This document shows positions 2,625 through 46,260 of a stretch of DNA of 64,000 nt, one piece after another (within the stretch, counting starts at the first letter, position 1; each line of letters starts with the position of its first letter). Position numbers and translations under genes: made by a program. The notes beneath the pieces were generated by a model. The model was not told where the DNA came from. It did not search any database and saw nothing but the letters and a program-made list of their open reading frames with translations. Source of the stretch: Hamadaea tsunoensis DSM 44101 (GTDB lineage: Bacteria; Actinomycetota; Actinomycetes; Mycobacteriales; Micromonosporaceae); the NCBI RefSeq assembly GCF_000428945.1, contig NZ_AUAX01000005.1, positions 248,001 to 312,000 of the forward strand, in the 5' to 3' direction.

Positions 2625-2870
2625 TTACGGACGGTGATATTCGGCGGCTTCTGGCGGACCGGTATTAACTAACTGTCCAATTGTTCCGCCCCAACTGTGC
2701 GAAGCGAGGCGGGCTGGCCTTTTGCTTTGTCGCTCGGCGTGATGGAATCTCGGGGGTCCGGCCCTTGCGGCCGGTCCGGTGATTGCTGAGCAAGCGCGTG
2801 GCGGATTTCTGGAACCCTGGGTACCGTGTGGCGAGCCAGGGCCAGGGCGGTCCGCATGAAGGGCGGTGAC
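2625..2870. other. Intergenic region upstream of the conservon
   Basis: About 246 bases between add and the sensor kinase. It contains a comparatively AT-rich stretch at 2660-2690 and a short GC hairpin around 2758-2785, which could end add transcription. A promoter for the conservon must lie here, but no convincing -35/-10 pair was identified. Confidence 0.4.
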
Positions 2871-5800
2871 GTGAGCAAGCGGCCAGGATCGGGTGACACG
2901 GTCCTTTCGCGTCTCCGTCGACCGGCGGGTCGACTCCGGGACATGCCCATCTGGGCCAAACTCGGCCTGATCATGGTCGTGCCGACCTTGGCGACGATCG
3001 TCGTCGGTGTCAACGGCCTCGTCGGTCAGATGGATACGGTCCAGCAGGCGGACAGGGCGCGAACTTTCGCGAACCTCGACGCCGAGGCTGGTGCGCTGAC
3101 GCATTCCCTGCAGGAAGAACGAGCCAAGGCCGTCTACCTGCTCGGCGCGGGCAGCGACAAGAACAACGTGCAGACCGCGAAGAGTGCGCTGGACCAGGCC
3201 GTCGGCGAGACCGACAAGGCGGTCGGCGACTATCTGCAGCAGATGCAGTCGTTGTCCACCGGGGACCTGCCGGCCAACTTCGTCAGCGCGATCGAGCACA
3301 TCCAGCAGGGTCTGCAGGACCTCGGCCCGCTCCGGGACGGCACGAAGAACGCCAAGTCCCAGTCCAGCGAGGTCGCCAACTCGTACGGCGTCATCATCGA
3401 CGACCTGCTGAACGTGCGGAACTTCACCGCCCAGCTGGCCGGCGACACCACGCTGTCCGAGCGGATGCAGGCCGGCGCGCAGCTGGCGAAGTACAAGGAA
3501 TACATGGCGCAGGAACGCGTCATCATCCTCAACGCCTTCGCGAGCGGCAGCCTCAGCGACCAGATGCGCCAGTCCTACATCGGCGCCCGCATCGGTGCCG
3601 AGCAGGCGTACGCGTCGTTCAAGCTCGTGGCGACGCCCGAGCAGAACGAGCTGTGGACCAGCCGCACCAGCGGCCGGGCGATGCGCGAGGTCGGCATCGA
3701 CGAGAGCGCGATCGACTCGATGCAGTCGCCGACGATGTCCACCCTGAACTTCAACGCGCAGAACTGGGACCAGGCCCACTCGGAGGCGTCCGACCTCGTC
3801 CGCAAGGTCGAGGAGAAGGTCGACGCCGACGCGGCGGCCGAGGCGACCGCGGTCCGCGACCAGGTCACCCAGCGGATCCTGGTCGAGACCGGCCTGCTGC
3901 TCGGCGCGCTGCTGCTCGCCATCCTGTTCGCCTGGTTGATCGCCCGGTCGATGGCCCGGTCGCTGCGGGAGCTGCGCCACGGCGCGCTCGCGGTCGCCCA
4001 GTACGGCCTGCCCCAGGCGGTCGCCCGGCTGCGCGACCCCTCCATCTCCAGCGCCCTGTCGCCGGCCCAGGTGGCCAGCCAGATCGCCGACCCCCTGCCG
4101 GTCCGCAGCAAGGACGAGTTCGGGCAGGTGACCGAGGCGTTCAACGCGGTCCACCTCGAGGCCGTGCGTACCGCGGCGGAACAGGCCGCCCTGCGGGCCT
4201 CCGTCGCGACGATGTTCGTCAACCTCGCCCGCCGTTCCCAGATCCTGGTCGACCGGCTCATCGGCCACCTCGACCGGCTGGAGCGCGGCGAGGAGGACCC
4301 CGACCGTCTCGGCGAGCTGTTCCAGCTCGACCACCTGGCCACCCGGATGCGGCGCAACGACGAGAACCTCCTGGTCCTCGCCGGCGCCGACTCGACTCGC
4401 GTACAGCGGGACCCGGCGTCCCTCGGCGACGTGCTGCGGGCCGCCCAGTCCGAGGTCGAGCACTACACCCGCATCGAGTTCGGCACCGTCGACCGGGACA
4501 TCGAGGTGGCCTCGCACGCGGTCAACGACCTCGTGCACCTGGTCGCCGAGCTGTTCGACAACGCGACCGCCTTCTCCCCGCCGGACTCGATCGTCATGGT
4601 CGAGGCCCGCCGGGTCGGCGACCGCGCCGTGCTCTACGTCGAGGACCAGGGCATCGGCATCTCCAACGAGATGCTGGCCGACATCAACGAGCGCCTCGCG
4701 ACGCCGCCCATGGTGGACGTCGCGGTCTCCCGGATGATGGGCCTCGTCGTGGTCGCCCGGCTGGCTGCCCGGCACAGCGTCAAGGTCGAGCTGCGGCCCG
4801 CCGCGGACCGGGGCACGATCGCCGACGTCACCCTGCCGCAGTCGGTGCTGGTACCGCGGGCCCTGTCGGGCCGCGGCCAGGCGCCGAGCCGTGCGGTGAC
4901 GCCGCAGGCCCAGCCCTCGCAGGTGCCGCCGCGCTCGCCGTTCGCCCAGCCGCTCGCGCTGGAGAGCGGGCCCGTGCCCGCGCCGCACTCCAACGGCCAC
5001 GTCCCGCAGCGCCCGCTCTACGAGGTCCCGCCGTCGCCGAGCCGCCTCTTCGAGGCGCCGCCCGCACCGCCGGCGAGCACCCCGGCCGGGGACTTCGGCA
5101 CCAACGGCCGCTCGATGCCGGCCTGGTCGGATCTGACCGGCGCCAACGGCCGCCCGGCAAGCCCGGCGAACGGCAGCAACGGCTCGCCGATCGACCCGCT
5201 GCCGCAGCGCCGCGCGACCGAGCAGAACACCGTCGAGGGCGAGCTGATGTCGGACGGCCGGGGCATCCCGCGCCAGATGCCGACGTCGCCCGAGGTGAAC
5301 TCGCGCGCCGACACCACCTGGCCGCCGTCCGCCGCGCCCGAGACCACGCGGTCCGAGCCGAACTGGACGTCCGGCGACACGTTCGCGGGGCAGCCGATGT
5401 CCGCGCCGCCGTTCGGGTCGAGCCCGGTCAGCAGCGTCCCGGTGAGCAGCATGCCGGTCAGTGGCGTACCGGTGAGCAGCATGCCGGTGAGCAGCACCCC
5501 GGTCAGCGCGCCGTCGGTGCCGAGCGGCGCCGCGTTGCCGGTCTGGCCGCCGGTCACGCCCGGTGACACGCCGACGCCCGATCGGACGAGCGAATTCCCG
5601 ATGGTCGACGAGCAGGCGACCGCTCAGCCGACGATCTCCTACGTTCCACCGGCTCCCGCGAACGCCGACAGCGCGGTAGCCTACGCGGACGAGACGATGG
5701 AGTTGCCGATCTTCCGGGAACTCGAATCGGCTTGGTTCCGCACCCGCAAACCGGCTGCCGGCGAGCCCGCGGAACCGGTCGACATCTCGGAGACGGCACA

Positions 5801-6341
5801 GTTCCCGAGCGTCGCGTCGGGCGATGCCTCGGCCACCGGCCAGTACCGGACCGTGTCGGCGCAGAGCGCGCCCACCAGCCAGTACCCGGTCGCCGGCGGG
5901 GCATGGGACGACGCCGACGAGCGGCGTTCGACCACGACGGCAAGCAGCACGAAGCCCTACTCCGACGACCGGGCCGCGAGCAACCCGACGATCCCGGCCC
6001 CCTACTCCGTCCCGGCCGCGTACGCGCCGAGCTGGCAGACGTCCGCCGACGACGGTTGGGCGGCCGCGTCCGCGGCCAGTTCAGCCGCTCACGACGGCGG
6101 CATGGACGAGACGACCGGCGCCGGGCTGCCCAAGCGCGTTCCGATGGCACAGCTGGTTCCCGGTGGAATCGAGCGCCCTGGCGGAGCCGCGACCGTCCAG
6201 CGGCGTACGCCTGAGGGGGTGCGCGGCCTGCTCTCCGCGTACCACCGAGGAGTGCAGCGAGGCCGCACACAGCAGAACGACGAAACGCCCGCCAGTTCCA
6301 CCCCGAACGGGCGGCAATCCGGCAAGGAGCATGAGGCATGA
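2871..6341 (+). CDS. cvnA: Conservon sensor histidine kinase-like protein (nitrate-sensor type)
   Basis: About 1156 residues. A first membrane helix (about 31-52) is followed by a long helical extracellular region of the nitrate/nitrite-sensing type, a second helix (about 340-360, [16 protein letters not shown]), a HAMP-like region, and an HATPase_c domain. The N-box is [12 protein letters not shown] and the G1 box VEDQGIGIS. The dimerisation segment ([13 protein letters not shown]) lacks an obvious phospho-acceptor His, as is usual in conservon kinases. A disordered 480-residue tail has repeats of PVSSMPVSG type (nt 5425-5520), a SAWF segment and an end module [17 protein letters not shown] 2871 was preferred; GTG 2826 and ATG 2856 are in frame. 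It heads cvnABCD and overlaps cvnB by ATGA. Confidence 0.88.
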
Positions 6342-6742
6342 CATCAACGCAGGATCTGGGTTGGCTTCTGGCCAACTTCGCGGATCGTGTACCGGGAGTC
6401 GCGCACGCCGTCGCCGTCTCCGCGGACGGTCTGCTCCTCGCGTCTTCGCGGGACCTGCCGCGGGACCGGGCCGACCAGCTGGCGGCGATCTCCTCTGGTC
6501 TGGTCAGCCTCACGCAGGGCGCGGCGCGCTGCTTCGAGGGCGGCGCCGTCCTGCAGACCGTGGTCGAGATGGACAACGGGTTCCTGTTCCTGATGTCCAT
6601 CTCGGATGGTTCATCGTTCGCCGTCCTGGCGTCGCGGAGCTGCGACGTCGGCCAGGTCGGGTACGAGATGGCGCTGCTGGTGGACCGAGTGGGCGACGCG
6701 CTCACGCCGGCGCCGCGCTCGCCCGCGGGCATGCTCAACTGA
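6338..6742 (+). CDS. cvnB: Roadblock/LC7-domain protein of the conservon
   Basis: 134 residues forming one roadblock/LC7 domain ([20 protein letters not shown], then [10 protein letters not shown]). In conservons this small protein is thought to modulate the neighbouring CvnD GTPase and connect it to CvnA. The ATG overlaps the cvnA stop as ATGA and has AAGGAG upstream, so translation is probably coupled. Function is taken from Streptomyces conservon work; nothing in the sequence shows its signal. Confidence 0.92.
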
Positions 6743-6800: not shown

Positions 6801-7175
6801 ATGGTTGAACGAGATGAGCCGACCGGCGCGCTGGTTCGGCCGTATGCCGTTACCCGTGGTCGCACCCGGCCCAGGCTGGACATCGCGATCGAGGCATTGG
6901 TCGAGACCACCATGCGCGGCCGGTCGTCTTCGGCGTCCAAGGGCTCGACCGGCCGCGAACACCAGCACATCGCGTCGTTGTGCGACGGTAGGTTGCAATC
7001 CCTCGCGGAGATCGCGGCGCGGATGCAGCTTCCGCTGGGTGTGGCGCGCGTGCTCATCGCGGACATGGCCGCAGACGGTCTCGTCGCGGTCTATGAGCCC
7101 ACCTCATTCGAGACCAATGACGCAGTAGGCACTGAATTGCTGGAAAGGGTGCTGAGTGGACTTCGGAGGCTCTGA
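6801..7175 (+). CDS. cvnC: DUF742 protein of the conservon
   Basis: 124 residues with the DUF742 pattern: GALVRPYAVTRGRT near the N-terminus, then a helical part HIASLCDGRLQSLAEIAARM followed by LPLGVARVLIADMAADGLV, which looks like a winged-helix fold. It follows cvnB by 58 bases and overlaps the GTG start of cvnD by 20 bases. ATG 6801 is preceded by AAAGGGGG about 10 bases upstream. Its biochemical role in conservons is not established. Confidence 0.9.
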   Translation: MVERDEPTGALVRPYAVTRGRTRPRLDIAIEALVETTMRGRSSSASKGSTGREHQHIASLCDGRLQSLAEIAARMQLPLGVARVLIADMAADGLVAVYEPTSFETNDAVGTELLERVLSGLRRL

Positions 7176-7764
7176 CATGTCGCACCGTCCCAACCCTGGA
7201 CGGGTGACCTCGGCGAAGATCGTCATCGCCGGTGGCTTCGGCGTGGGTAAGACCACGCTGGTCGGCTCGGTCTCAGAGATCACGCCGCTGACGACGGAAG
7301 CGATCATGACGTCAGCCGGCGTCGGGGTCGACGACACGCGCCAGGTGCCGGGTAAGACGACCACCACGGTCGCCATGGACTTCGGCCGCATCTCGATCGA
7401 CCGCGACCTCATCCTGTACCTCTTCGGTACGCCGGGCCAGACGCGGTTCTGGTTCATGTGGGATGAGCTGGTCCGCGGCGCGATCGGCGCGGTCGTGCTC
7501 GTCGACACCCGTCGTCTCGCCGACTGTTTCGCGGCGATCGACTTCTTCGAGCACCGCAAGCTGCCGTACCTGGTGGCGATCAACTGCTTCGACGGGACCC
7601 AGTACCACACGGCGCAGGACGTGCGCGACGCGCTCGCCATCTCGCCCGAGGTGCCGGTCGTCACGTGCGACGCCCGTGGTCGTGAGTCCACCAAGCAGGT
7701 GCTGATCTCGCTGGTCGAGTACGTACTGAGCATGCGGCGTACGCGACAGGGCATCCCCGCCTGA
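7156..7764 (+). CDS. cvnD: Conservon small GTPase
   Basis: 202 residues. The P-loop GGFGVGKTT lies at residues 26-34, a switch/G3 region reads YLFGTPGQTRFWFM, and the base-recognition part is atypical (AINCFDG in place of NKxD). This matches the CvnD / MglA-like GTPases that act with roadblock partners. GTG 7156 (AAGGG upstream) was chosen because homologues begin with MDF; ATG 7177 with GGAGG 7 bases upstream is a strong alternative. It is the last gene of cvnABCD and is followed by a strong terminator. Confidence 0.92.
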   Translation: MDFGGSDMSHRPNPGRVTSAKIVIAGGFGVGKTTLVGSVSEITPLTTEAIMTSAGVGVDDTRQVPGKTTTTVAMDFGRISIDRDLILYLFGTPGQTRFWFMWDELVRGAIGAVVLVDTRRLADCFAAIDFFEHRKLPYLVAINCFDGTQYHTAQDVRDALAISPEVPVVTCDARGRESTKQVLISLVEYVLSMRRTRQGIPA

Positions 7765-7868: not shown

Positions 7869-9071
7869 CTACAGGCGGATCCAGGTGTGGCGCTGGGCGA
7901 CGAACATCGCCAGCACGTCGGGTGACATGCCGCCGTGGTCGATCGGGCTGAACCCGTACGCGCCCGCGACTCCTTCGTATGGCGTGGATTCCAGAGCACC
8001 CCGGAGCCGCCGTGGTTCGACGCTGGACGCCCGGCGTACCGCCGCCGCGACGAGGGACAGGGCGTCGGCCGCGTACGGCGCGCAGCCGCTGAACGAGCCG
8101 AACTGCTGCGTGTACCGGTTGATGAAGCTGCGGGTCGCCCGGGCACTGGCTCCGTTGGCCAGGAACGGGGCACCACCGAGCACCGCCGGGTACGCGACGC
8201 GTACGCCCTGCATGATGGGCTGGTTGTCGGTGGACAGGGTGTCGTCGTCCACCCCGCCCGTCGGCAGGTAGATCTTGGCGGTGGTGTTCACGCCGCGCAG
8301 CTCCTTGACGGCCCGCGCCGTGTTCGACGGGCCGGCCCACACCACGATCGCGTGCGGATGGGTGTCCACGGCCCGGGCGGCGGCACCGGAGTAGTCCTTG
8401 CCCGACGACGGCAGCGTCACCTTGTCGCTGAGCGTACGCCCGGCGGCGTCGAGAGCGGCCGTCATCGCGCGCAGGCCGTCCGAACCCAGCGTGTCGGTAC
8501 CCGACATCACCACGACGCGCTTGAGGCCGCTGGAGCGGATGTCGCGGGCCAGCGTCGTCGCGATGTCGGACGCGTTCGGGGCCAGCTTGTAGGTGAACTT
8601 CCGCGTCGTCAGCGGAATGGAGATCGCATCGGCCCCGCACAGCGACAGGTACGGCACGCGGCGGTCCTCCGCGACGGCCAGCGTCGCGAACGCGGTCTCG
8701 GCCGTGATGCCGCCGATGATCGCGGACACGCCCTGCTCGGCGAACTGCCGGGCGACCAACGTCGCCTGGCCGGCGTCGCCGTGGTTGTCCAGCACGATCG
8801 CGTCGAGGCGACGGTAGACGTCGCCGACGCGTACGCCGTCGACGTTGAGGTCGGCCAGCGCGATGCCGACCGCCCGCTCCTGCAGGCGGCCGAAGACGGC
8901 GTTGCTCCCGGACAACTCCAGGCTGACGCCGATACGGATCGGGTCGGTACTCAGCACCTTGTGGGTGGTTGTCGCGGCACTGGAGTCGGTCATGACATCA
9001 CAGGCCGTGAGCGCCGAGCCCGCCGCGACCGCGGCTCCCATGGTGAGGAATCCGCGTCGGGTGACTCTCAT
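7869..9071 (-). CDS. Tat-exported solute-binding lipoprotein, branched-chain amino-acid type
   Basis: 400 residues. The N-terminus MRVTRRGFLTMGAAV is a twin-arginine signal, and LTAC around residue 24 is a lipobox, so the protein should be folded before export and anchored by lipid. The body is a periplasmic-binding fold of the LivJ/Leu-Ile-Val class (IRIGVSLELSGSNAVFGR, then VSAIIGGITAETAFA and IYLPTGGVDDDTL). No ABC permease or ATPase lies nearby, so it could serve a transporter encoded elsewhere or act as a sensor for the neighbouring conservon. GGAGG lies 5 bases before the ATG. Confidence 0.85.
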   Translation of the reverse strand: MRVTRRGFLTMGAAVAAGSALTACDVMTDSSAATTTHKVLSTDPIRIGVSLELSGSNAVFGRLQERAVGIALADLNVDGVRVGDVYRRLDAIVLDNHGDAGQATLVARQFAEQGVSAIIGGITAETAFATLAVAEDRRVPYLSLCGADAISIPLTTRKFTYKLAPNASDIATTLARDIRSSGLKRVVVMSGTDTLGSDGLRAMTAALDAAGRTLSDKVTLPSSGKDYSGAAARAVDTHPHAIVVWAGPSNTARAVKELRGVNTTAKIYLPTGGVDDDTLSTDNQPIMQGVRVAYPAVLGGAPFLANGASARATRSFINRYTQQFGSFSGCAPYAADALSLVAAAVRRASSVEPRRLRGALESTPYEGVAGAYGFSPIDHGGMSPDVLAMFVAQRHTWIRL

Positions 9072-9184: not shown

Positions 9185-11785
9185 TTACCGGCCGTAATTG
9201 GCTGTGCGGTAGCCGTAGTCTTCGCGGTCGTCGGTGTCGCGGCTGAAGTCCCAGCCGCCGGCCGATTCGCGACCCGGGCGGCCGCCGACGGCGTAGCCGT
9301 TGACCTCCTGGCCGCGCCGCCAGCCCCGGAAGTAGCCCGAGGTGTGCTGGGCGAGGCGCTGCGGGTCGCGCACTATGCGCAGCGAACGGTCGGGAGTGGT
9401 GATCGGCGAGCCCGGCACCAGATTGGCCTGCGGTACGCGTTTCGGCAGGCCGGCCCGGGTCTCCTCGGCGAAGCTGGGGCTGGCCGCGCTCTCGGCGGCC
9501 CGCCAGCCGAGGTCGACTTCGGAGTTCCAGGTCGGCTCGTCGCCGTTGTCCTCGGGGGCGTCCCCTTCGGGGTGCCCGGTGAACCAGGCGGACCGGATCG
9601 TGGAGAAGATCAGCAGGTCGCCGTCGCCGTCGTCCACGACGGGCGAGCCGCCCCGGTTGGCGGCGCGTACGCTCAGCGGCTCCTCCAGGGCGCTGGCGTC
9701 GACCAGGCGCAGCGGCGGAGGCTCGGGCAGGACCAGATCGTCGGCGAGCCACGGCGGGGTGACCTTGTCGTAGCCGCCGGTGTCGTAGCCGTTCGCCTCG
9801 TAGCCGTTGGACCCGTTGGCTTCGTATCCGTTCGGCCCGAAGCCGTTGGCCCCGTAACCGTTGGCCTCGTAACCGTTGGCCTCGAAGCCGCTGCCCTCGA
9901 AGCCGCCGCTCTCGTAGCCGCGGTCGTAACCGTTGCGGCCCCGGCCGTCCCGGTCCCGGACATCTCTGTCCCGGGCATCCCGGTCTCTGGCGTCCCGGTC
10001 CCGGGCGTCGCGACCGTCCCGGACGTCCAGCGGATCGCGGGTGTCGCGGACGTCGCGGTCGCGCGGATCCCGGCCGCGGCCGTCGCGCTCGTAACCCCGC
10101 TCTTCGTAGCCGCGTTCCTCGTAGCCGCGGTCGAAGCCGACCGGCTCGTAGGGCGCCTGGTACGCGGGCGGTTCGTAGGCCGGCGGCCCGGACACGGCGG
10201 CCCGTTCGTCGCGGTCGCCGATCAACGGCCAGGACGACCGGGAGCCGGCGGGCTCGGCGGACGGCGCCGGCCGGGTGAGCGGCAGCACGATCTCCGTGGC
10301 ACCGATGCCGGCACCCTGCTCGTCGAGGGCGGAGCCGGCCGGCTCGCCCGGCGACGTGAGGCGCTCGGCACGGGCGTTGTGGATGGCGGCCTGCGACAGG
10401 GTCGGCACGAACGGCGCACCCACCTCGGCGGGCGTCGTGGTCCGGGGGCCGTCGTCGATCGGGCCGCGCTGGGCCGGCACGGCGGCCGTGCCCCCCTGCA
10501 CCGGCTGCGGTTGAGGCTGCGCAACCGTGGTGGTGGCGACCGGCTGCGGCTGGGTCTTGGGCTGCGCGACGGGCCGGGGGTGCGCCGGCTGGCTGACCTG
10601 CTGCGGCTGCCGCGGCGGCTGGATCACCGGTACGCCGACCGCCGGCGTCGGCTCGAAGCCGGGCGGCAGGGGCGCGACGGGTGCGACAGGCGCGGGCGAG
10701 ACCGGTGCGGCGGCGACGGGGTTCAGGGGCGACCGGGCCCGGCGCGAGGCCGGTATCCGGGTCGGGGCCTGTACCTCTTCGCGGACCGGCCGAAGCGGCA
10801 TCGGTACGGGCGCCGGCAGCGTGGCCGCGGGTGGTGCGGACGCCGGTGCGGCGGCCGTCCGGCGCAGCGGTTTCGCGGGTGGCGGTACCGGTGCGGCCGC
10901 GCCCGGCGAGGAGACCCGGTCGGCGATGGTCTGGATGAGCGAGGCGCAGGCGGCGTCGCAGGCGCGCACGGCGGCGACGGCCTGCCGGACGGTCTCGGCG
11001 ATCGCGGCGGTGATCTGCTTGCTCACGCCGCCGCGGCGCGGCGTCTCGGCGATGGCCACCCGCAGGGCGGTGACGGCTTCGGTGGCGGTGGCGTGGTCGG
11101 TGACACCGGCCGTGGCGACCTGAGCGGCCACCGAGTCGACGGTCAGCACCTCGCGGCCGCGGCCGGCCGGGGCCGCGAGCATGCCGGGCTCGGGCAGGAC
11201 GTCGAGGATCGCCAGCGAGAGGTGCTCGGCCGGGTCCGGGTACGCCCGCAGGGCCGCCGGGTAGAGCTCGCGGAGGACCTCCCGCAGGGCGCCCGCGGTG
11301 CCGTGCCGGCCGTACGCGAGTGCGGTGTGCGCGGCCAGCACCGGCTTGAGCCCGGCGAGGTCGCGGGGGGCCGGACCGGCCTGGGCGGACAGCGCACCCG
11401 CCTGCAGGGCGCGGGCGAGACCGACCGCGCGCCGCTCGGCCGGGGCCGACTCGATCTCGTCGGCCGAGTCGTCGTCGGCGAAGCGCTCGGCGAAGTCGTC
11501 CGCGGCGTCGTCGTCGGCCACCGCCAGCGATCGGCCGGCGGTGGTGAGCAGCATCGTCAGCAGGTGGTCATCGCTGTCGGCGGCGACCGCGACCCCGGAG
11601 GGGGCGCTGGAGCGCTCGGCGAGCAGGGCGCTCAGCGTCGCGTACCCGTTGGCGTCGTCGCCGATCTCGCAGACGTCGAGCAGGCGGCCCGAGTCGTCGA
11701 CGACGGCCGCGGTCAGCCATCCGTCGTCACCGGCGACCCCTGTGTCGGCCGAAGCCAAACCGCAATACACGCGAACGAGCGCCAC
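9185..11785 (-). CDS. Domesticated IS110-like transposase domain with repeats and a conservon-kinase-like tail
   Basis: 866 residues. Residues 1-250 follow the IS110 (DEDD) transposase N-terminal domain: VYCGLASADTG in place of VYCGID, then DSGRLLDVCEI, AVAADSDDHLL, and a helical part ending ILDVLPEPGM. The catalytic acids appear lost (GLA instead of GID) and no second catalytic domain follows. A Pro/Ala-rich linker leads to Arg-Asp dipeptide repeats and then NGYEA/NGYGA repeats (nt about 9780-10130). The C-terminal 150 residues contain IRSAWFTG and GLPKRVPQANLVPG followed by an RGWRRGQ segment, matching CvnA at 5700-6270. A GTG start has GGGAGGAG upstream. It is probably a scaffold or regulator; its molecular role is unknown. 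Confidence 0.6.
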   Translation of the reverse strand: MALVRVYCGLASADTGVAGDDGWLTAAVVDDSGRLLDVCEIGDDANGYATLSALLAERSSAPSGVAVAADSDDHLLTMLLTTAGRSLAVADDDAADDFAERFADDDSADEIESAPAERRAVGLARALQAGALSAQAGPAPRDLAGLKPVLAAHTALAYGRHGTAGALREVLRELYPAALRAYPDPAEHLSLAILDVLPEPGMLAAPAGRGREVLTVDSVAAQVATAGVTDHATATEAVTALRVAIAETPRRGGVSKQITAAIAETVRQAVAAVRACDAACASLIQTIADRVSSPGAAAPVPPPAKPLRRTAAAPASAPPAATLPAPVPMPLRPVREEVQAPTRIPASRRARSPLNPVAAAPVSPAPVAPVAPLPPGFEPTPAVGVPVIQPPRQPQQVSQPAHPRPVAQPKTQPQPVATTTVAQPQPQPVQGGTAAVPAQRGPIDDGPRTTTPAEVGAPFVPTLSQAAIHNARAERLTSPGEPAGSALDEQGAGIGATEIVLPLTRPAPSAEPAGSRSSWPLIGDRDERAAVSGPPAYEPPAYQAPYEPVGFDRGYEERGYEERGYERDGRGRDPRDRDVRDTRDPLDVRDGRDARDRDARDRDARDRDVRDRDGRGRNGYDRGYESGGFEGSGFEANGYEANGYGANGFGPNGYEANGSNGYEANGYDTGGYDKVTPPWLADDLVLPEPPPLRLVDASALEEPLSVRAANRGGSPVVDDGDGDLLIFSTIRSAWFTGHPEGDAPEDNGDEPTWNSEVDLGWRAAESAASPSFAEETRAGLPKRVPQANLVPGSPITTPDRSLRIVRDPQRLAQHTSGYFRGWRRGQEVNGYAVGGRPGRESAGGWDFSRDTDDREDYGYRTANYGR

Positions 11786-11843: not shown

Positions 11844-12704
11844 TCAGTCGCGCCAGTCCACGGCGCTGGAGATCTTGCCGATCACCGTACGCCAGCCGAG
11901 GCTCGCCTGTTGTGCACCGATTTTACGAATGCGGCGCTTGGCCATGAATCCGCCGATGCCGCCGGCCGATGCCGCCCGGAGCGCCTCGTCGAGATCGTCC
12001 AGCGGGGAACCGGGGGACAGCATGGTCAGCACCGTCTCCAGGCGCAACGCGTACGCGAGGTCGCGGGCCACCTCGCCGGCGCTCAGCAGCAACGGGGCGT
12101 CCCAGGCGTCGTGACCGCCGCGCAGGTTCTCCACCACGAGGTCGAGCTCGTAGGCGTCGTCCTCGGCCGGCTCGATCTCGTCGGCGGTGACCGCCTCGGC
12201 GAACTCGTCCCATTCGGCGAGCTGGCGCAGGTCGTGCGGGGCGTCCGACTTGACGAAGTCGAGCAGGCCCTCGGTCGACTTGAAGATCAGGACCTTGCCC
12301 TTGTGGGACAGGAAGAGCGGGACCTCCTCGGCGTCGGCGGCCGGCTCCTCCTCGGTCTCCGCCGCGTCCTCGGCGTCGTCGGCCGAGTCCTCGTCGGTGA
12401 CCGGCTCGAGGTCGACGCTCGTGTCGCCCTTGCCGGCGGCCTTGTCCGCGTCGTCGGAGTCCTCACCCAGCGCCTGGCGGGTGAGCTCGTCCTCGTCGAA
12501 GTCGGGCAGGTCCTCGTCTTCCAGCGGCTCGTCGGGCTTGCGCGCGAACGGGTTCTCCTCGGGCTCGCGCTCCGAGACGTCGGTCGGCGTCACCGCGTCC
12601 GACGTCCGGTAGGCGCGCAGCGTGAAACCGCTGCCCGCGGGCAGGGCGATCTCGACCGGGTCCATCGCGTACCCGCTCCAGAACTCGGTGGGCTCCTCCG
12701 CCAC
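11844..12704 (-). CDS. Acidic protein of unknown function
   Basis: 286 residues, not recognised. The N-terminal 40 residues (FWSGYAMDPVEIALPAGSGF) are ordered. A highly acidic Asp/Glu stretch of roughly 90 residues follows, then a mixed domain (PLFLSHKGKVLIFKSTEGLL, with a later AEWDEFAEAV) and a basic C-terminus (AKRRIRKIG). No signal or membrane segment is present. The GTG start has AGGAGG 5 bases upstream. It lies in line with the IS110-like gene (58-base gap) and could be co-transcribed. An 8-bp-arm inverted repeat at 12756-12781 may regulate it. Confidence 0.7.
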   Translation of the reverse strand: MAEEPTEFWSGYAMDPVEIALPAGSGFTLRAYRTSDAVTPTDVSEREPEENPFARKPDEPLEDEDLPDFDEDELTRQALGEDSDDADKAAGKGDTSVDLEPVTDEDSADDAEDAAETEEEPAADAEEVPLFLSHKGKVLIFKSTEGLLDFVKSDAPHDLRQLAEWDEFAEAVTADEIEPAEDDAYELDLVVENLRGGHDAWDAPLLLSAGEVARDLAYALRLETVLTMLSPGSPLDDLDEALRAASAGGIGGFMAKRRIRKIGAQQASLGWRTVIGKISSAVDWRD

Positions 12705-14565: not shown

Positions 14566-16269
14566 TTATGCGGCCGGGCTTGTTTCCCGCGCAGTACCGA
14601 TTCGGATCACCTGATCGAATCCGGCGGTCTCCGCCGTCCGGTGGGTCACCAGCACGACCGTACGCCCGCGCAGGAATTCCAGCACGTCGCGGAGCACGGT
14701 GTCGGCGTGCGCGGGGTCCAGGCCCTCGGTCGGCTCGTCGAGCAGCACGACCGGAGGTGCCTGCAGCAGCGCCCTGGTCAGCGTCAGGCGCTGGCGCTGA
14801 CCGCCGGACATCGCGGTGCCGTCCTCGCCGACGATCGTGTTCCAGCCCTCGGGCTGCGCCTCGATCCAGTCCAGCAGGCCGGCCGCGCGGGCGGCGTCCC
14901 GGCGCTCGGGCTCGGTGGCCTGCCGGCCGAGGGTCACGTTCTCGGCGATGCTCGCGTGGAAGACCGCCGCATCGGCGAAGAGGCCGCCGACGGTCGCGTA
15001 CGCGTCTTCGGGCAGCGGCCGGCCGTCGTAGCGGACCTGGCCCTCGTCCGGGCGCAGGGCACCGGAGAGCAGGGCGAGGACGGTGGACTTGCCGGCACCG
15101 GACGGCCCGACGAGCGCGGTCGTCGATCCGGGGGCGAGGGTGAGCGAGAAGTCCGCGAGCGCGGGTGGTCCGGCGGGCCGGTACCGCACCGAAACCCCCT
15201 CCACCTCCAGCAACCCGGGCCTGCCGGGCGCCCCCAAGATCCGGTTTGGATCAGGGAAATCACCCGAATCTTGGGCCATGATCACGTGGTTTTCCGTGAT
15301 CCAAACCGGATCTTGGCGGTCGCCGCCGGAGGCGGCGCGGCCGTCAGCGGTGGGGGCGGCGGCGGTGGTGAGGAGGGGGCGGAGGCGGTCCAGGGCTCCG
15401 GCGATCTCCGCGCGGCGCCGGGCCGCCGCCGTCAGCGAGAGCGCGACCTCCCCGGCGGCGATCGTGCCGACCGCGAGGACCCCGATCCACACGCCCGGTA
15501 CGCCGGCGGCGTGGGCCGCGGCGATCACCGAGAATGCGGTCAGCGCCATGATCAGCGAGCCCATCAGGTCGACCAGGACGGCCCGGAACGCCAGCCGCTT
15601 CTCCAGTCGCGCCAGGGCGTCCGAGATCGACGCCGCCGTGGCCTCGTACGCCGGCCGGGCCCCGTACGCGGCCAGGTCGGCGGCGCCGTGGACGAGATCG
15701 AGGGAGGCGACGGCGTACTCGGCGCGGAGCGCGGCCAGGGTGGAGGTCGCGGCCAGCCGGTACGCCAGCACCGGCAGCACTACGCCGCAGAGCACGAGCC
15801 CGGCCCCGAGGACGACCCCGCACCACGGGTCGATCAGGACGGCACCGGTGACGGCGAGGGCGCTCGCGAGCGTACCGGCGCAGGCGGGGATCCAGACGCG
15901 GACGACGAGATCCTGGACGGCATCCACATCGGACACCATGCGGGCCAGGGCGTCGCCGCGGCGTACCGGTTCGGCCGGGCGGTCCACGAGGGCGGCGAAG
16001 ACGCGCGCGCGTACGGTCGTGACGATCCGGAGTACGGCGTCGTGCGAGGCCAGGCGTTCGGCGTAGCGCAGGGCGCCGCGGGCGATGGCGAGGGCGCGTA
16101 CGGCGACGATGGCCACGGTCAGCGAGGCGACCGGCGGCTGCCCGGCGGCCGTCATGAGCAACCAGGTCGCCGTCGCCATCAGGCTCAGCCCGGCGAGTTC
16201 GGTCGCGGTCGCGAGGAGCACCGCCCCCAGCAACCGTCCCGCCACCGGCCTCGCCAACCGGAAGATCAT
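14566..16269 (-). CDS. cydC: Thiol reductant ABC exporter subunit CydC, with an in-frame palindromic repeat
   Basis: 567 residues. A six-helix exporter domain (starting MIFRLARPVAGRLLGA) is followed by an ATPase with Walker A GPSGAGKST, signature MSGGQRQRL and Walker B VVLLDEPTEG. CydDC exports cysteine/glutathione-type thiols needed to assemble cytochrome bd. Between the two domains lie about 28 residues (QDPVWITENHVIMAQDSG and onward) encoded entirely by an 83-bp palindromic repeat at 15234-15316 that is also found in intergenic DNA. The ATG overlaps the cydD stop as ATGA. A longer open frame to 17709 is antisense-like noise through cydD. Confidence 0.92.
   Translation of the reverse strand: MIFRLARPVAGRLLGAVLLATATELAGLSLMATATWLLMTAAGQPPVASLTVAIVAVRALAIARGALRYAERLASHDAVLRIVTTVRARVFAALVDRPAEPVRRGDALARMVSDVDAVQDLVVRVWIPACAGTLASALAVTGAVLIDPWCGVVLGAGLVLCGVVLPVLAYRLAATSTLAALRAEYAVASLDLVHGAADLAAYGARPAYEATAASISDALARLEKRLAFRAVLVDLMGSLIMALTAFSVIAAAHAAGVPGVWIGVLAVGTIAAGEVALSLTAAARRRAEIAGALDRLRPLLTTAAAPTADGRAASGGDRQDPVWITENHVIMAQDSGDFPDPNRILGAPGRPGLLEVEGVSVRYRPAGPPALADFSLTLAPGSTTALVGPSGAGKSTVLALLSGALRPDEGQVRYDGRPLPEDAYATVGGLFADAAVFHASIAENVTLGRQATEPERRDAARAAGLLDWIEAQPEGWNTIVGEDGTAMSGGQRQRLTLTRALLQAPPVVLLDEPTEGLDPAHADTVLRDVLEFLRGRTVVLVTHRTAETAGFDQVIRIGTARETSPAA
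15234..15316. repeat. 83-bp nested palindromic repeat inside cydC
   Basis: 20-bp perfect inverted arms (left 15234-15253, right 15297-15316) enclose a 43-base loop. Relatives lie at 23249-23331 and 46178-46260. Compared with the copy at 23249, one base pair in the arms has changed on both sides (CCGG against CCCG), so the stem is kept. Here the element is translated in the cydC frame. Confidence 0.9.
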
Positions 16270-23248: not shown

Positions 23249-23331
23249 CCAAGATCCCGTTTGGATCAGGGAAATCACCCGAATCTTGGACCAAGATTAC
23301 GTGCGAAACCATGATCCAAACGGGATCTTGG
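23249..23331. repeat. 83-bp nested palindromic repeat between upp and deoC
   Basis: 20-bp perfect arms (23249-23268 and 23312-23331) with a 43-base loop that contains a second hairpin (AATCTTGG, one base, CCAAGATT). It lies between two minus-strand genes and could end upp transcription. Same family as the copies in cydC and at 46178. Confidence 0.9.
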
Positions 23332-46177: not shown

Positions 46178-46260
46178 CCGTGATCCCGTTTGGATCACGG
46201 AAATAACCCGAATCTTGGGCCATGATTCGGGTGAAAAACCTGATCCAAACCAGATCTTGG
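46178..46260. repeat. 83-bp nested palindromic repeat, third copy (decayed arms)
   Basis: Same length and loop as the copies at 15234 and 23249, but the 20-bp arms now differ at 4 positions. An inner hairpin CCCGAATC/GATTCGGG is perfect. It lies between the accA-type gene (stop at 46331) and the EspC-like gene. Confidence 0.85.

Follow-up and report, generated by a model that had tools for sequence, protein, structure and literature searches.

An IS110-derived protein with a CvnA-type tail encoded beside a conservon in Hamadaea tsunoensis

Recombinases of the IS110/IS1111 family (IS621, ISCro4; PF01548 and PF02371) are built from a RuvC-like fold and a helical region. In IS621, according to passages of its description, dimerisation takes place through the coiled coil, while the catalytic serine and the recognition of the bridge RNA both belong to the Tnp domain (PMC11208158). 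The Piv invertase of Moraxella is an IS110 relative that serves its host in another job (PMC11187229) and is reported to require its DEDD motif. Inactive RuvC-like domains are also found in TasR and in Nop5 of the box C/D snoRNP, and that of Nop5 is stated in part of one source to recruit the fibrillarin methyltransferase (PMC12045711), by analogy a precedent for the use of an inactive RuvC-like domain in protein binding. The CvnA kinases of the conservons (AGPS) have a C-terminal tail with the motifs SAWF, GLPxRVPxAxLVPG and RGxxRG. Excerpts of two papers report binding of CvnA9 to both CvnB9 and CvnC9 (PMC8510531) and describe an action of MfpD, a roadblock protein, on its GTPase (preprint PMC13015309). 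Further proteins tied to conservons by an extra gene are the AGPS accessories CvnE (P450) and CvnF (GAF), whose CvnA is said in a portion of the source to lack a sensor domain (PMC13343842).

Here we describe P0001, encoded in a window of 64,000 nucleotides of the Hamadaea tsunoensis DSM 44101 genome, the whole stretch of DNA that was analysed. The protein has the RuvC-like fold and helical region of the IS110/IS1111 recombinases but differs from them in its replaced acids, the missing Tnp domain, the fixed neighbourhood of its gene and the fusion to a kinase tail; the DEDD motif required by Piv is thus lost in P0001. The tail is common to P0001 and CvnA; of the NIT, HAMP and HATPase domains of the latter, a Pfam scan found none in P0001. 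Like CvnE and CvnF it is the product of an extra conservon-tied gene, and conserved linkage to cvnABCD, the general criterion for an AGPS accessory, was found in 66 of 70 loci; it has another fold, however (the Pfam scan matched neither a P450 nor a GAF domain), its gene is convergent and outside the operon, and the neighbouring CvnA has an NIT domain. Compared with Nop5 and TasR, its C-terminus is different. We found no earlier account of P0001 in the literature searched, a body to which most preprints and subscription journals did not belong.

Architecture and IS110 origin of P0001

P0001 (866 aa) is encoded on the minus strand at 9185..11785 in an open reading frame with a GTG start codon, and has matches in the genomes of the family. 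The start is supported by the opening MALVR.YCGL, which is conserved in a 74-row alignment. The N-domain (aa 1-290; 10916..11785, minus strand), delimited by PF01548, hhalign, the AF2 model and fold search, consists of an inactivated RuvC/DEDD-like fold (about aa 4-138) and a helical region matching the IS110 stretch after it. The linker (aa 291-719; 9629..10915, minus strand), identified by sequence reading and dN/dS, is Pro/Gln-rich at first, continues with RDxRD and YxANG repeats and is fast evolving. At 9768-10127 of the window, 15-nt repeats in the linker encode YxANG-like pentapeptides, and RDxRD runs are present as well. The CvnA-type tail (aa 720-866, about 147 aa; 9188..9628, minus strand), defined by its profile and by the search of its own genome, contains SAWF (aa 732-735; 9581..9592), invariant in a 19-row alignment, followed by the GLPKRVPQANLVPG motif (aa 779-792; 9410..9451) and the RGWRRG segment (aa 820-825; 9311..9328), both located by BLASTP and the tail alignment. 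The protein ends, as do the scored lineages without an adjacent roadblock gene, with a C-terminal extension (GGRPGRE..GGWDFSRD; 9188..9310), all on the minus strand.

The preliminary description, made from the sequence alone, had assigned an IS110-type transposase domain with apparently lost catalytic acids to the N-terminus. Pfam scanning of the whole protein returned a single insignificant match and missed PF01548 itself, for which P0001 scores a weak 14.2 bits against a cut-off of 29 bits; a PDB search with the whole protein found no match and one with the N-domain profile only nine weak, unrelated rows (E 0.63-1.8). The assignment was nevertheless borne out by profile-profile comparison (hhalign) of the N-domain with four IS110 transposases (E 3.7e-20 over 203 columns), by PF01548 matches in 14 of 25 aligned family members (E up to 10; best 1.2e-10) and by fold search, in which the VIA-align list of structures was headed by ISCro4 and IS621. 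The AF2 model of the N-domain is moderate (pLDDT 74.5, pTM 0.49) and its Foldseek TM-scores are low (0.35). An RNase H fold of the IS110 type was found here, the lack of which had been named as evidence against the assignment. In an unrooted tree, a single branch connects the P0001 family with actinobacterial IS110 proteins that are intact.

The DEDD site is broken in all 128 copies of the P0001 family, a set that comprises loci L031-L130 and L001-L030 minus two true transposases and includes one paralogue and some species twice. The D1 position is occupied by Ala in 118 copies, Thr in nine and Val in one, and is acidic in none; D3 is acidic in four copies and D4 in one. The E2 position holds Asp in 124 copies and Glu in one. 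Hence the supposed loss of the catalytic acids stands for D1, D3 and D4, while E2 is changed and not lost. Most of the replacements are Ala or Arg. Among 17 control IS110 loci from outside the family, 16 keep all four acids and one is without D3. Since the Pfam scan had missed even PF01548, absence of the Tnp domain was re-tested with our own profile, built from ten IS110 C-terminal parts (the stretch after the N-domain). With filters off and E up to 10, the profile found the domain in none of 135 frames with an N-domain, some of which run off the end of their sequence piece, and recovered seven of seven other transposases (E 3e-75 to 4e-6). We have thus shown that the N-domain of P0001 is of IS110 origin, that its active site is lost and that the Tnp domain is gone as well.

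The CvnA-type tail and the flanking genes

The conservon of the window lies on the plus strand. Its cvnA (2826..6341, with the earliest start codon in the frame taken as the beginning) encodes a kinase-like protein of NIT-HAMP-HATPase architecture that ends in the same tail, as identified by Pfam and the tail searches; reading and BLASTP place SAWF at 5727..5738, a 14-residue motif of the GLPKRVPxAxLVPG type at 6123..6164 and RGVQRG at 6246..6263. It is followed by cvnB (roadblock/LC7; 6338..6742; PF03259, 79 bits), cvnC (DUF742; 6801..7175; PF05331, 106 bits) and cvnD (small GTPase; 7156..7764; PF03029, 120 bits, with Ras below its cut-off). On the minus strand, at 7869..9071, lies the gene of a periplasmic-binding-protein-like lipoprotein (PF13458, Peripla_BP_6) with an RR signal and an LTAC lipobox by reading. 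This gene is optional here, being present between cvnD and the P0001 gene in 26 of 70 loci, and its product could be a sensory partner. The preliminary description put CvnA three genes away from P0001, which proved incorrect: cvnB, cvnC, cvnD and the binding-protein gene all intervene. On the other side, P0003 (286 aa; 11844..12704, minus strand) is located directly upstream of P0001 in 97 of 97 loci, here across a gap of 58 nt. Stretches resembling P0003 (28-33% identical) occur in open frames of 435-923 aa in 10 of 197 sampled genomes, all from one other family of the same taxonomic order; these were the only relatives detected outside the family, and they do not indicate a function. Elsewhere in the window, a palindromic repeat of about 90 nt was observed in three places (15231-15319, about 23251-23329 and about 46180-46258; six arm matches against 0.02 expected), the first copy with 44-nt arms that are 80% complementary, in frame inside an ABC-transporter open frame (CydC-like by reading).

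The proposal that P0001 and CvnA share C-terminal modules in the same order was confirmed: SAWF, GLPKRVPxAxLVPG and RGxxRG follow one another identically in both proteins, and BLASTP aligns the P0001 tail with that of the neighbouring CvnA at E 2e-7 (42% over 81 aa). The alignment of 19 IS110-type proteins contains 27 invariant columns, and the profile made from these tails alone, no kinases included, gave three strong matches in the 9.5-Mb genome of the organism: P0001 (1.8e-49), a CvnA-like kinase on contig C40 (3.0e-20) and the CvnA of the window (3.0e-15), the next protein following at E 0.6 (150 of 325 candidates scored). By kinase-domain search, this genome encodes eight CvnA-like kinases (two pieces on C8 counted as one, and an ordinary histidine kinase on C47 left out), of which two have the full tail; by reading, five of the other six end in a looser GLP.R and one in LLPTR. 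Across a class sample, the tail was found in at least 130 of 296 genomes at E up to 1e-4 (15 candidates scored per genome). Of 29 places read from among the best-scoring, two are P0001 orthologues and 27 lie outside the family, in three other families; 20 of these 27 show a CvnA kinase domain within the sequence piece available, and in the other seven pieces neither a kinase nor an IS110 domain is seen. A roadblock gene is next in all 27, as is partly expected with cvnA preceding a roadblock gene by definition.

By sequence, the tail is thus a feature of a subset of the conservon (AGPS) kinases of the class and not just of the neighbouring CvnA. Being carried by this wider subset, it is no private link between P0001 and its neighbour. 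A private copy of the neighbour's tail was considered and is not favoured, the P0001 tail being nearer to that of the C40 kinase. Modelled alone, the tail is predicted to be mostly disordered, in a poor model (pLDDT 53.7, pTM 0.20).

Conservation and the adjoining roadblock gene

The gene of P0001 is old and stable within one bacterial family. The N-domain was matched in 149 of 150 family genomes (E up to 0.001), once in 134 and more often in 15; of the three extra matches that were read, two proved to be true IS110 transposases and the third a paralogue. Seven genomes with weak matches (G007, G016, G017, G048, G083, G096 and G116) contain, on reading, true orthologues with the tail. G112 is counted by its profile match alone (E 9e-4) and the only genome without a match is G041, both drafts of hundreds of contigs. 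In the class sample, the N-domain profile matched at least 18 of 296 genomes at E up to 1e-12 (8 candidates scored per genome), three of them of the own family (1e-108 to 1e-111), while 15 from elsewhere reached 1.4e-30 at best. Of the 21 places in these 15 genomes, 17 were read, and at this depth of scoring none is a P0001 orthologue: all are frames of IS110-type transposases, in part truncated, and the tail is missing from them. Genome G074 encodes a diverged second paralogue with both N-domain and tail (L037:8094-9521), near which no P0003, roadblock or conservon gene was detected, and genome G076 has a second tail of the P0001 type.

For synteny we used 97 loci (the 100 loci L031-L130 minus two transposases and one paralogue), an uneven set in which L031-L050 were picked for diversity whereas Micromonospora makes up most of L051-L130. 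In 66 of the 70 loci with at least 6 kb downstream, a complete convergent cvnD-C-B-A with the tail faces P0001, and each of the four remaining loci has the adjoining roadblock gene described below. The tail of P0001 itself was detected in 70 of 70, as a separate frame in two (L125, L127). A tail-bearing frame of kinase size coexists with P0001 in all 14 genomes checked (kinase domain read in five), non-adjacent to it in six (G007, G083, G096, G015, G016 and G048). By a simple counting method, the N-domain has a dN/dS of 0.12-0.15 against two genomes of the same genus, and of 0.28 and 0.43 against two other genera. The corresponding values are 0.21-0.30, then 0.43 and 0.46, for the tail, and 0.33-0.35, then 0.74 and 0.79, for the linker.

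A roadblock gene directly follows P0001 on the same strand in 11 of 70 loci (L031, L032, L033, L034, L038-L043 and L047). The one product scanned matches Robl_LC7 at 62 bits, and in nine of the 11 loci the open frame (a frame, not a start codon) begins at or before the P0001 stop. Family-wide, a roadblock of this type was found in 33 of 150 genomes at E 1.6e-50 or better; the other roadblock matches (8.8e-32 or weaker; up to 27 candidates scored per genome) were taken as ordinary CvnB. It adjoins P0001 by coordinates in 31 of the 33 and by reading in the other two, and the search placed none beside P0001 in the Hamadaea genome of the window. Hence in 33 of 150 genomes P0001 and the adjoining roadblock recreate the gene order of cvnA-cvnB, a new finding of this analysis. 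Together with the facing conservon, this upholds the tie to the conservon system proposed in the preliminary description.

In the tree, the 11 adjoining roadblocks group together (100/100) at the end of a long branch (1.85). They fall outside CvnB, which gives no support to an origin from a copy of the local cvnB. By reading, the roadblocks of the 11 loci lack the alpha-1 Trp kept in CvnB; for MfpD, a passage of the preprint PMC13015309 notes this position as opposite the GTPase face. The C-terminal end of P0001 could be scored in 85 of 104 loci: the extension is present in 69 of 69 without the roadblock and its motif, picked after viewing the alignment, is missing in 16 of 16 with it, a pattern that may reflect one event in one clade; one of these 16, L222, has a related-looking extension.

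Proposed role and alternative readings

We consider it rather likely that P0001 is a catalytically dead, probably dimeric IS110 scaffold with a CvnA-type docking tail for roadblock/GTPase components. A fragment of an IS110 recombinase, with the RuvC-like fold and the helical region, dead and devoid of the Tnp domain, would have been domesticated, with the tail of a CvnA kinase attached to it at the C-terminus by way of a linker that is long and probably disordered. The IS110 part may dimerise, and the tail may act as a docking peptide that folds on binding. We propose such a scaffold because the tail is shared with CvnA, G-protein genes lie around the P0001 gene, and both the binding by CvnA9 and the action of MfpD on its GTPase have been reported; the partner would be a roadblock of the CvnB type or the GTPase machinery also used by CvnA. 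Because that machinery is also that of CvnA, P0001 may be the soluble, non-kinase counterpart of CvnA and compete with it, bridge, or hold a pool of G-protein components. In lineages without a roadblock of their own, including that of the window, the CvnB of the conservon could be used in trans, perhaps with the help of the C-terminal extension. Judging from its domains, P0001 should neither transpose nor phosphorylate. Gene order is an association and not binding, and it is from such associations that we infer the docking partner.

Other readings of these data differ widely in plausibility. That P0001 is a decaying or still mobile IS110 copy mistaken for a domesticated gene is hardly credible in spite of its clear IS110 kinship: it is matched in 149 of 150 genomes, and once in 134, its catalytic site is broken, its dN/dS within the genus is low, and its surroundings are constant in 97 of 97 loci, P0003 included, whereas mobility would place an IS110 element in multiple or variable positions. 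On these grounds a living or decaying element was ruled out. Nearly as improbable is a likeness of the tails by chance or low complexity, a thought invited by the Pro/Ala-rich linkers that both C-terminal regions follow. The 27 invariant columns in 19 rows and the search of the own genome, with three strong matches and nothing further before E 0.6 (150 of 325 candidates scored), led us to reject it; the tail profile matched no unrelated proteins among the 27 outside loci. The low-complexity outcome named in advance as contrary evidence was therefore not seen, yet alone the tail is predicted to be mostly disordered.

More weight is due to two readings that keep the domesticated protein and change its partner. 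The dead IS110 domain could still bind DNA or a bridge-like RNA, the tail linking a nucleic-acid or transcription input to the conservon. The RuvC-like fold is retained, and part of one source (PMC12045711) describes both RNA binding by IS110 relatives through a Nop-like region and an inactive RuvC-like domain retained in box C/D Nop5. We regard this as improbable, however, with the Tnp domain, the reader of bridge RNA, absent from all 135 frames and the acids replaced mostly by Ala and Arg; moreover, the gap between the P0001 gene and P0003 is just 58 nt, which leaves an RNA gene little space there. Somewhat less doubtful, though still not the reading we would choose, is that the tail binds another common partner, for instance a polar, membrane or cell-division scaffold, and serves co-localisation with CvnA and not G-protein signalling. 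Its presence on a membrane kinase and on a kinase-less protein alike is compatible with this, as is its predicted disorder, like that of a generic docking peptide; the linkage to cvnABCD in 66 of 70 loci and the roadblock adjoining in 33 of 150 genomes argue for the G-protein components instead.

For the scaffold with a docking tail, a tentative history, which we hold to be possible but less likely than its alternatives taken together, would be a single recruitment at the base of the family, in which cvnA-cvnB was duplicated and an IS110 element took the place of the kinase part in the copy, giving a protein with a dead recombinase head, the docking tail and a roadblock partner of its own; later lineages would have lost the roadblock, with P0001 wired to the neighbouring conservon. 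The data suggest that the enzyme of a jumping gene has been recruited as part of a signalling system. If the history above is true, the family possesses a bacterial G-protein system in which an exapted recombinase stands where a sensor kinase would be. A section of PMC13343842 describes the flow of signals through actinobacterial G protein systems as poorly understood, and P0001, which shares just the tail of the kinase, isolates this tail as the likely docking element. P0001 would be a bacterial case, comparable to Nop5, of a transposase fold kept throughout a family as a non-catalytic regulatory part.
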